From NCBI GenBank assembly GCA_002423665.1, contig DINJ01000152.1, positions 6,600 through 13,080 on the forward strand: a DNA stretch of 6,481 nt, read 5' to 3'. The stretch is from Bacteroidetes bacterium UBA5543. GTDB taxonomy: Bacteria > Bacteroidota > Bacteroidia > Chitinophagales > Chitinophagaceae. Position numbers and translations under genes: made by a program. Below are positions 2,496-2,972 of the stretch, one piece after another. Within the stretch, counting starts at the first letter, position 1, and each line of letters opens with the position of its first letter. The notes under the pieces were generated by a model. The model was not told the origin of the DNA. It saw only the letters and a program-made list of their open reading frames with translations, and searched no databases.

Positions 2496-2567
2496 CGCGA
2501 GGTAGAGCAGCGGTAGCTCGTCGGGCTCATAACCCGAAGGTCACAGGTTCGATCCCTGTCCTCGCTA
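2496..2567 (+). tRNA. initiator tRNA-fMet (anticodon CAT)
   Basis: A complete cloverleaf can be drawn by hand. Acceptor 5' strand is 2496-2502 and 3' strand 2560-2566; D stem GAGC/GCTC; anticodon stem TCGGG/CCCGA with loop CTCATAA (anticodon CAT at 2528-2530); 5-base variable loop; T stem ACAGG/CCTGT with loop TTCGATC; discriminator A at 2567. It is the initiator rather than the elongator because the first acceptor pair is mismatched (C1 opposite U72), the anticodon stem has three consecutive G-C pairs, and pair 11-24 is A-U. CCA is not encoded (the next bases are CTA), so it must be added enzymatically. Its 3' third and terminator are duplicated downstream, beyond the GIY-YIG gene. Confidence 0.96.
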
Positions 2568-2601
2568 CTAAATTCAGAAAGCCCCTTATTGGGGCTTTTT
2601 T
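2542..2601 (+). repeat. 60-bp direct repeat, copy 1 (tRNA 3' end plus terminator)
   Basis: These 60 bases are identical, by my base-by-base comparison, to 2913-2972 (offset 371). The copy covers the last variable-loop base, the T arm, the 3' acceptor strand and discriminator, a short linker and the whole terminator including six T residues. The bases immediately outside differ on both sides (T versus A on the left, G versus T on the right), so the boundaries are sharp. In this copy the repeat forms the functional 3' end of tRNA-fMet. Confidence 0.97.
2578..2601 (+). terminator. Rho-independent terminator of tRNA-fMet
   Basis: AAAGCCCC (2578-2585), a five-base loop TTATT, then GGGGCTTT and a T-tract to 2601 form an 8-bp hairpin with a U-run on the plus strand. 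It should end the tRNA transcript and stands between the tRNA promoter and the GIY-YIG gene. The opposite strand lacks a matching U-run, so it is one-directional. Confidence 0.9.
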
Positions 2602-2604
2602 GTC

Positions 2605-2880
2605 ATGACATATACTGTCTACATACTATACTCAAAGCTACATGATACTATCTATGTCGGTTATACTTCTAATTTAATTAACAGGTTTGCCTCTCACAAT
2701 AAACTCGGCAGAGACTGGACAAAACGATACAGGCCATGGATAGTTATATACTGCGCATGCTTTGACGATAAAGCCGATGCCTTAAAAAGAGAAAAGGAGT
2801 TAAAGTCTGGGCAAGGGAGGCAGTGGATCAGGAAAGCCATCCATGAACAACTACCTGTTTACGGGTATATTTTTATATAA
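2605..2880 (+). CDS. small GIY-YIG domain nuclease-like protein
   Basis: The 91-residue product is a stand-alone GIY-YIG domain of the UvrC-N/YhbQ-like type. The GIY strand is VYI (5-7), the YIG strand is YVG (17-19) in IYVGYTSNL, the catalytic-helix arginine is R27 with H31 (NRFASHN), and the metal-binding glutamate is expected at E63 in ALKREKELKSG (59-69). So the usual active-site positions appear to be present. The family contains homing endonucleases, repair nucleases and many small proteins of unknown role; no specificity domain is attached here, so its target is unknown. The tail after about residue 82 (LPVYGYIFI) is hydrophobic and looks non-family. The ATG lies three bases after the T-tract of the tRNA terminator, with no room for a Shine-Dalgarno sequence or its own promoter. 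The frame is open upstream only to a TAA at 2569. The stop codon abuts a degenerate tRNA-fMet fragment. Confidence 0.9.
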   Translation: MTYTVYILYSKLHDTIYVGYTSNLINRFASHNKLGRDWTKRYRPWIVIYCACFDDKADALKREKELKSGQGRQWIRKAIHEQLPVYGYIFI

Positions 2881-2938
2881 AGCTCCTCGCGCTCATATCC
2901 GCCTGAGGCGGACACAGGTTCGATCCCTGTCCTCGCTA
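2881..2938 (+). pseudogene. tRNA-fMet remnant lacking its 5' part
   Basis: Directly after the GIY-YIG stop codon, 2881-2900 matches tRNA-fMet 2515-2534 at 17 of 20 bases (3' D stem, 5' anticodon stem, loop with CAT, start of the 3' anticodon stem). Bases 2913-2938 then match its T arm and acceptor 3' strand perfectly. Between them, seven tRNA bases are replaced by twelve that complete the palindrome TCCGCCTGAGGCGGA. There is no 5' acceptor strand or 5' D-stem half, and the anticodon stem cannot form in its normal way, so this cannot be a working tRNA. It shows that the duplication originally covered more of the tRNA than the 60 perfect bases. Confidence 0.8.
2898..2912. repeat. 15-base palindrome TCCGCC-TGA-GGCGGA
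   Basis: A perfect 6-bp inverted repeat with a 3-base loop. It ends exactly one base before the perfect 60-bp direct repeat begins. It replaces the tRNA region between the anticodon loop and the T arm in the remnant. It could be the boundary of a cassette, a recognition site or a short dispersed repeat; only one copy is visible here. Confidence 0.75.
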
Positions 2939-2972
2939 CTAAATTCAGAAAGCCCCTTATTGGGGCTTTTTT
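2913..2972 (+). repeat. 60-bp direct repeat, copy 2
   Basis: This is identical to 2542-2601 at all 60 positions. It contains the T arm and acceptor 3' strand of tRNA-fMet, the linker and the terminator hairpin. It differs from copy 1 only beyond its ends: upstream sequence is the palindrome rather than an intact tRNA, and downstream the T-tract is two bases longer. Confidence 0.97.

Follow-up and report, generated by a model that had tools for sequence, protein, structure and literature searches.

Integrative elements and genomic islands located at tRNA genes carry tRNA 3' sequence duplicated around foreign DNA, and group I introns with GIY-YIG genes occur in tRNA anticodon loops. The subject here is a probable element of a further kind: a unit (termed here a cassette) consisting of one small GIY-YIG nuclease gene set between an intact initiator tRNA gene and a broken second copy of it, as found within a 6,481-nucleotide stretch of contig DINJ01000152.1 of Bacteroidetes bacterium UBA5543; this whole stretch is referred to as the window. 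Two described systems come closest. In phages, the GIY-YIG nuclease SegB, encoded next to tRNA genes, brings about segmental amplification by a route that depends on recombination (PMC13096335). In bacteria, RAYTs (transposases associated with repetitive extragenic palindromes, or REPs) are Y1 (HuH) enzymes whose genes are flanked by GC-rich palindromes (PMC2817692).

The cassettes resemble SegB in that a free-standing GIY-YIG gene adjoins tRNA genes and a unit of nuclease plus tRNA is amplified in tandem (PMC13096335). They differ in residing on bacterial chromosomes, in encoding a single domain of about 80-100 residues and in being flanked by broken, hairpin-carrying tRNA copies. No favoured isotype is reported for SegB (PMC13096335), whereas the nuclease clades described here match isotypes; SegB homologues are reported in Bacteroidota phages (PMC13096335), whereas tblastn of the window protein against 50,697 phage records returned nothing at E 1e-5. 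The likeness to the REP/RAYT system lies in a nuclease gene flanked by GC-rich palindromes, in the interruption of 2-4 bases at their centres, in paired stem changes and, more loosely and with many exceptions, in related palindromes elsewhere in the genome (PMC2817692). Here, however, the enzyme is a GIY-YIG protein, and the palindromes stand in direct orientation inside tRNA copies, whereas REPs are arranged as inverted pairs headed by GT(A/G)G; at the median, genomes with a Met-clade nuclease contain 13 palindromes of the window's class, as against more than 100 for REPs (PMC2817692).

ARAGORN calls a single tRNA in the window, a tRNA-Met(CAT) gene at 2496-2568 (Table 1). A direct-repeat comparison within the window finds bases 2542-2601 and 2913-2972 to be 100% identical over 60 bp and separated by 311 bp (2602-2912), exactly as an earlier reading made from the sequence alone (the sequence-only reading) had stated; widening the repeat to 63 bp (2539-2601 and 2910-2972) lowers the identity to 98%. 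Because the remaining direct repeats listed in the window are merely 18-31 nt long and 73-84% identical, a chance origin of the perfect repeat can be dismissed. The same reading had held that the only gene between the copies is a small GIY-YIG nuclease, and the sole open reading frame (ORF) of substance there, at 2605-2880, indeed encodes a 91-residue protein matching PF01541 with E 5.6e-16. It had also described the second copy as a tRNA 3' end with its terminator; both are present, but the copy is larger than that and contains a palindrome that had been overlooked. Similarity to the tRNA starts at 2881, right after the stop codon, and covers tRNA nucleotides 20-73 (83%). Within it a perfect palindrome, TCCGCCTGAGGCGGA (2898-2912), replaces the 3' half of the anticodon arm, such that where the intact tRNA reads CATA-ACCCGAAGGT-C, the second copy reads CATA-TCCGCCTGAGGCGGA-C at the same place. 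Broken, hairpin-carrying copies of this sort are termed psi-tRNAs, either psi-5' or psi-3'; the window cassette has a psi-3', and no psi-5' was seen in it.

The window cassette belongs to a family of GIY-YIG cassettes that have a single gene and duplicated tRNA flanks. When 59 related genomes were searched, the window protein matched 106 places, spread over 38 of the genomes, and 96 of these places were examined with their flanks (the other 10 come without flanking DNA). An ARAGORN tRNA lies within 250 bp of the gene in 57 of the 96, on the nuclease strand in every case (57/57); the nearest tRNA lies upstream of the nuclease 40 times, at a median distance of 44 bp, and downstream 17 times, at a median of 12 bp. 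Once lengths had been limited to 70-125 residues and near-identical copies from the same genome discarded, 88 of the 96 genes remained, and both flanks of each were searched by BLAST against a tRNA library made from the same loci. Both flanks proved tRNA-like for 51 genes, one flank for 16 and neither for 21; the two flanks share an isotype in 50 of the 51. The suspicion of the sequence-only reading that such genes recur in Bacteroidota was well founded, and other tRNAs are used as well: the labels found are Arg, Pro, Val, fMet, Ser, eMet, Asn, Phe, Asp, Ala, Glu, Leu and Lys, of which 12 are common to both flanks of some gene and the thirteenth, Lys, has a clear tRNA on one side only. A separate GIY-YIG clade of 16 genes, serving as an internal control, scored 0/16 in the flank test (these are 16 of the 22 rows labelled 'none' on the tree, where a stricter 36-bit cut applies).

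A protein search of named genomes yielded 435 relatives, of which the best 80 were kept; these 80 belong to Bacteroidota, Balneolota, Ignavibacteriota and Candidatus Cloacimonadota. Both flanks are tRNA-like at 51 of the best 80 loci, one at 24 and none at 5, and all 51 two-flank loci agree in isotype (fMet and eMet pooled). A called tRNA lies within 250 bp at 62 loci, sharing the nuclease strand at 61 of them. The best labels are fMet (51), eMet (22), Asn (2) and none (5), a bias toward Met that is to be expected, since it was for their resemblance to the window's clade that the loci were selected. The named and unnamed sets overlap and are not independent--L194 and L010, for example, are the same sequence, their contigs being equal in length and their palindromes matching.

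Across the family, each nuclease clade tends to go with one tRNA isotype. Mapped onto a tree of the 88 proteins, built on 89 columns, the isotype labels, counting 'none' as a label, require 30 changes, as against a mean of 62 when shuffled, with none of 200 shuffles as low. Asp and Ala each form a single clade, and Val, Asn, Pro and Ser each need 2-3 changes.

In its fullest form a cassette reads psi-5', intact tRNA, terminator, GIY-YIG gene, psi-3', where the psi-5' comprises the 5' part of the tRNA plus a hairpin and lacks the 3' end, and the psi-3' comprises a hairpin, the 3' part and the terminator. In other forms the nuclease stands upstream of the intact tRNA, and it is then often the 5' part that is duplicated. 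The hairpins are inserted in, or replace, a segment of the anticodon, D or T loop of the broken copies: a tRNA-Leu copy (L099) has CCTGCCTGCCGGCAGGCAGG inserted in its anticodon loop and is otherwise identical, a tRNA-Arg copy (L022) has the 20-mer CCTGCCTGCCGGCAGGCAGG in its D loop, and a tRNA-Arg(CCG) cassette (L116) has a 28-nt insert in both psi copies. At a locus of Candidatus Cloacimonadota (L219:1-345 and 570-760), read by eye, a tRNA-Asn version has the hairpin TCAGGC..GCCTGA at the equivalent position after GTTA. Some nuclease reading frames extend into the psi-tRNA. Tandem nuclease cassettes about 330 bp apart occur in three genomes (G030, G024 and G010), and repeated psi-tRNA units of 103-129 bp occur at three loci (L171, L184 and L213), the unit being 103 bp in Longitalea (L171) and 129 bp in Ancylomarina (L184). 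In the array of Ancylomarina euxinus (L184:1850-3300), nine psi-tRNA-fMet units of about 129 bp were read, five upstream and four downstream of one GIY-YIG gene; nearly all contain TCCGCCTAAGGCGGA and most a terminator, and three intact fMet genes stand upstream of the array.

The palindrome of the Met clade keeps a near-constant position and a paired stem. Across the 80 named loci, 96 instances of the pattern TCCGCC(2-4)GGCGGA fall in the vicinity of the gene (58,730 bp) and a single one in the 215,554 bp farther off. CATA precedes 72 of these 96 near-gene palindromes and C follows 85, and their loops comprise 34 different sequences. At least one such palindrome is present at 61 of the 80 loci and on both sides at 17, in 10 of which the two are identical, loop included. 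When hairpins were collected by an anticodon-like context before them, with no stem preset, 83 of 98 had the TCCGCC stem and 9 had TCCGTC..GACGGA, a paired change.

The same fMet locus was followed in relatives by examining 30 of 48 matches, the window's own included, with about 1.5 kb on each side. Within those spans the era gene is present at 24 of the 30 loci and a GIY-YIG match at 4. Beside era, the cassette is intact in G000. In a member of the same genus (G003), the tRNA, the terminator and the downstream lipocalin-like gene are kept, while a GIY-YIG match and a second tRNA copy are both missing; this is an empty site of the sort that the sequence-only reading had proposed to look for in relatives. 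In another congener (G002) the GIY-YIG frame, 76% identical to that of the window, is truncated after about 38 residues, and BLAST finds no second tRNA copy. Since identity to the window's era is 93.9% for G003 and 88.9% for G002, the nearer relative is the empty one; either loss in G003 or a separate gain would account for the empty site. A possible decayed GIY-YIG start in G001 (L057) was dropped for want of support from tblastn. Downstream of the tRNA-fMet gene of G017 (L077) stands a psi-tRNA-fMet with two different hairpins and no GIY-YIG match, likely a solo remnant. The pattern against which the cassette idea had originally been set--one arrangement in all relatives, no other tRNA gene so occupied and a nuclease tree following that of the species--was looked for and not found, with the reservation that the tree, which follows isotype overall, also shows clustering by host order within the Met clade.

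The window protein has a GIY-YIG domain at residues 3-68 of 91 as its sole Pfam match, and it has no NCBIfam match. Residues Y6, Y17, R27, H31 and E63, which we take to be catalytic, are invariant in 24 of 24 aligned relatives. By family profile the closest solved structures are UPF0213 proteins (1zg2, E 6.9e-15; 1ywl, E 1.7e-13), and the structure-specific nuclease SLX1 matches at E 4.7e-7. We know of no UPF0213 or SLX1 protein that forms a tRNA-flanked cassette.

Table 1. Features of the cassette and of its surroundings (positions are those of the window)
Feature	Position	Strand	Basis or remark
Intact initiator tRNA-fMet(CAT) gene	2496..2568	+	ARAGORN; Rfam RF00005, 65.2 bits
First copy of the direct repeat, with the intact tRNA's T arm, 3' acceptor strand and terminator	2542..2601	+	Identical to 2913-2972
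Terminator hairpin AAAGCCCC-TTATT-GGGGCTTT of the intact tRNA	2578..2598	+	L007 1474-1494, offset +1104
GIY-YIG nuclease-family ORF, 91 aa	2605..2880	+	PF01541; Y6, Y17, R27, H31, E63 invariant in 24 aligned relatives
Truncated tRNA-fMet pseudo-copy (psi-3'), tRNA nt 20-73	2881..2940	+	Begins directly after the stop codon; L007 1777-1835
Perfect palindrome TCCGCC-TGA-GGCGGA	2898..2912	.	Replaces the 3' half of the anticodon arm; CATA before, C after
Second copy of the direct repeat, with T arm, 3' acceptor strand and terminator	2913..2972	+	Repeat comparison
Second terminator hairpin	2949..2969	+	L007 1845-1865
DedA-like protein, neighbour	3-566		
PLP enzyme, D-cysteine desulfhydrase family, neighbour	617-1513		
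Era-like GTPase (MMR_HSR1 + KH_2), ordinary neighbour	1497-2387		Pfam/NCBIfam scans
Lipocalin-like protein, neighbour	3098-3562		Under the Pfam cut-off
NlpC/P60-type peptidase, neighbour	3677-4357		
Aminoacetone-oxidase-family flavoprotein, neighbour	4375-5589		
Phosphotransacetylase-like end	5589-6479		Frame open at the window edge

The favoured reading, to which a probability of about 0.5 is given, is that the unit is a selfish cassette of the homing type, directed at a particular tRNA gene, with a nuclease predicted to cut DNA derived from that gene. It is favoured because the closest functional parallel is phage SegB, and the cassettes would work most like free-standing GIY-YIG homing elements. 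Also counting in its favour are the isotype-sharing tRNA-like flanks and their absence from the separate clade, the agreement of nuclease clades with isotypes, the invariant residues, the tandem arrays, and the intact, decayed and empty states of one locus. The cut would fall in or near the segment of the anticodon (or D or T) loop where the palindromes sit, and repair against flanking tRNA-like sequence would then insert or amplify the cassette. Recombination between tRNA-like repeats may copy, multiply or delete the cassette, with selection keeping one intact tRNA; between the two 60-bp copies, it would restore a plain tRNA and terminator. The palindrome might either abolish the cut site in the flanking copies, as a form of self-protection, or itself be the recognised site. 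Insertion in an essential tRNA gene would be tolerable because the intact tRNA stays beside the nuclease.

Several observations weigh against this homing-type reading. A separate DNA-binding region is typical of free-standing GIY-YIG homing endonucleases, and Pfam finds no separate DNA-binding domain in the 91-residue window protein; its nearest structures are those of UPF0213 and SLX1 rather than of site-specific homing enzymes, with I-TevI matching only at E 0.0089. No base separates the cassette's intact tRNA gene from those of G003 and G001, so that a nuclease cutting intact tRNA genes would cut its own chromosome; this lack of change from the empty sites points to the copy with the palindrome, or to a hairpin form, as the more plausible substrate. 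On the tree the Leu and Lys labels are unclustered, and the trees are built on 85-89 columns and have many weak forks. Host order is clustered within the Met clade (22 changes versus 37.7 when shuffled; the named-set tree holds 78 of the 80 proteins, 60 of them with an order name), for which reason descent looks partly vertical. A tRNA-like flank is absent from 21 of the 88 genes, 5 of which fall outside the separate clade of 16, some of them at contig ends, and a few of the 57 called tRNAs (at L017, L104 and L107) are themselves hairpin-bearing copies. The G000 assembly is 66% complete. Finally, mobility, excision and the 'rebuilding' of the tRNA would have to be read from patterns only.

A second explanation shifts the emphasis from the tRNA to the palindrome: the unit would be a palindrome-mobilising system, the GIY-YIG counterpart of RAYT/REP, in which the nuclease recognises and disperses the hairpin or palindrome and the copy at the tRNA locus is the parental one. 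This is a tentative proposal, given considerably less weight than homing. It would account for a stem that is kept paired in the Met clade while the loop varies, and palindromes of four classes do lie within 800 bp of 38 of 80 GIY-YIG places, whereas the non-cassette clade has them at 1 of its 16 places and the Y1 loci at 4 of 79. Across the 59 genomes, TCCGCC palindromes have a median of 13 in the 11 genomes with a Met-clade nuclease versus 1 in the other 48 (p 1.1e-6); these counts include cassette copies (in G010, 1 of 12 is at the cassette, in a listing with wider loops), the genomes compared are not phylogenetically independent, and the Met-clade assignment rests on the tree for nine genomes and on similarity for G002 (decayed) and G033 (broken), both of which, like the G009 nuclease with no tRNA-like flank, count against the proposal. 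A control pattern, the motif written backwards, occurs 0-2 times per genome, and the TCCCGA class has no significant excess in the 11 Met-clade genomes (p 0.38). The excess recurs in 208 further genomes, with a median of 3 in 9 positives (match E 2e-18 or better plus a tRNA-Met in the locus) versus 0 in 175 genomes with no match at 1e-12 (p 3e-4); G093 (5 palindromes) and G096 (2), which have a tRNA-Met beside a weaker match, were placed among 24 'other hits'. Two genomes whose cassettes carry CCTGCCTGCCGGCAGGCAGG, G017 and G022, have 23 and 24 copies of its family at up to 2 mismatches.

Against palindrome mobilisation, 9 of the 175 genomes with no nuclease match at 1e-12 hold 10-38 palindromes (among them G087 with 38, G107 with 27 and G206 with 25). 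Likewise G006 (18) and G015 (15) are rich with no nuclease of the Met clade, TCCCGA palindromes number 36 in G037, which lacks a cassette, and the CCTGCCTGCCGGCAGGCAGG family reaches 48 copies in G031 and 19 in G030, where no such cassette was seen; conversely, G043 has cassettes with the CCTGCC 20-mer and only 3 copies. The TCCCGA and CCTGCC comparisons are moreover partly circular, because the classes were assigned from cassettes. As rich genomes occur with no matching nuclease, the coupling between palindrome and nuclease is statistical and loose, and dispersal itself would be a further step beyond these counts. RAYTs were considered as general owners of the palindromes and rejected: Y1 (RAYT-type) transposases occur at 81 places in 21 of 25 genomes tested, and a palindrome accompanies only 4 of 79 such loci (all 81 places having been covered; the first 30 loci gave none). 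One of the four is at L284:702-721 in G033, where a CCTGCC-family palindrome lies about 90 bp from a Y1-transposase match. Two dispersed palindromes, at L044 (in RNase P RNA-like sequence, by eye) and at L048 (in the variable arm of a tRNA-Ser), had the look of insertions into RNA genes; as they may be ordinary variable hairpins, they were left out of account. A broader version of the proposal, in which isotype-specific nucleases recognise a short palindrome, multiply their own cassette and seed dispersed palindromes in Bacteroidota and allied phyla, is likewise speculative, at somewhat better than one chance in four.

An unlikely explanation is that the nuclease is a host gene, serving DNA repair or tRNA-linked housekeeping, that was caught in a tandem tRNA duplication of which the broken copies are debris. 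Its nearest solved relatives, UPF0213 and SLX1, would fit such a role, as would the clustering by host order within the Met clade, and some loci (L188 and L170) do have tandem intact tRNA genes. Against it, the gene is patchy and decaying at one locus (as in G000, G002 and G003), stands beside many kinds of tRNA with isotype-matched nuclease clades and occurs in multiplied and broken copies; nor would debris be expected to hold a palindrome after CATA, as 72 of 96 do.

Still less probable is a system acting at the level of RNA, with a nuclease that cleaves or binds tRNA and a hairpin-bearing pseudo-tRNA that acts as decoy, regulator or antidote. That neighbouring tRNAs share the nuclease strand almost throughout both sets and that the hairpins are placed in tRNA loops speak for it. 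The pseudo-copies, however, are truncated at one end (in the window, beginning where the ORF stops), a terminator stands on either side of the unit, and in PADLOC 4 of 5 proteins, the window protein among them, are without a match and the fifth has a marginal one (E 6.5e-4), for which reason a defence gene was rejected too. To our knowledge, the GIY-YIG enzymes characterised so far act mostly on DNA, which also counts against an RNA-level role.

The remnant of an integrative element that used the tRNA-fMet gene as attachment site and lost its integrase, akin to the site-specific insertion with which the sequence-only reading compared the repeats, shares the tRNA 3' end in direct repeat and is otherwise very hard to credit: no integrase was found among the scanned window genes and no recombinase gene lies between the repeats, the same single-gene layout recurs at 12 kinds of tRNA, the nuclease lies upstream of the nearest tRNA in 17 of 57 cases with the 5' part often duplicated, hairpins in the anticodon, D or T loop interrupt the copies, and the terminator is duplicated as well, a geometry wrong for an integrative and conjugative element. 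Group I introns share with the cassettes a GIY-YIG gene and the anticodon region and were rejected, the functional tRNA being uninterrupted by ARAGORN and no group I intron family matching in Rfam at E up to 1 in 8 sources that include the window. Chance duplication beside an unrelated gene was rejected in view of the recurrence, the isotype match and the 0/16 in the separate clade. As a separate observation, the G010 locus contains a thiamine pyrophosphate (TPP) riboswitch (L009:2909-3006; RF00059, 69.8 bits).

No published account of chromosomal tRNA-flanked GIY-YIG cassettes was found in a literature search outside of which lay preprints and most subscription journals, and the literature searched yielded no description of the dispersed palindromes of these bacteria. 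By term, the accessible text of a 2006 phylogenomics paper on GIY-YIG proteins (PMC1564403) contains neither 'Bacteroid' nor 'COG2827', and tRNA appears there only in a methyltransferase context and in the references. Within the portions of the literature consulted, hairpin-bearing tRNA copies and isotype-matched clades are undescribed for free-standing GIY-YIG homing elements.

If the homing-type reading is true, these cassettes would be among the smallest selfish elements of bacterial chromosomes, consisting of one gene of less than 300 bp with tRNA-derived ends, and would extend to bacterial chromosomes the theme, set by phage SegB, of nuclease-driven tRNA amplification. They would also exemplify a way of living in an essential gene, with an intact tRNA kept beside broken copies, and, because the nuclease clades match different isotypes, their targets would be predictable from sequence alone. 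The cassettes may, in addition, account for one layer of the palindromes scattered through the genomes of these bacteria; should the nucleases indeed seed those palindromes, the family would represent a new class of prokaryotic mobile element, served by a single enzyme of 80-100 residues.

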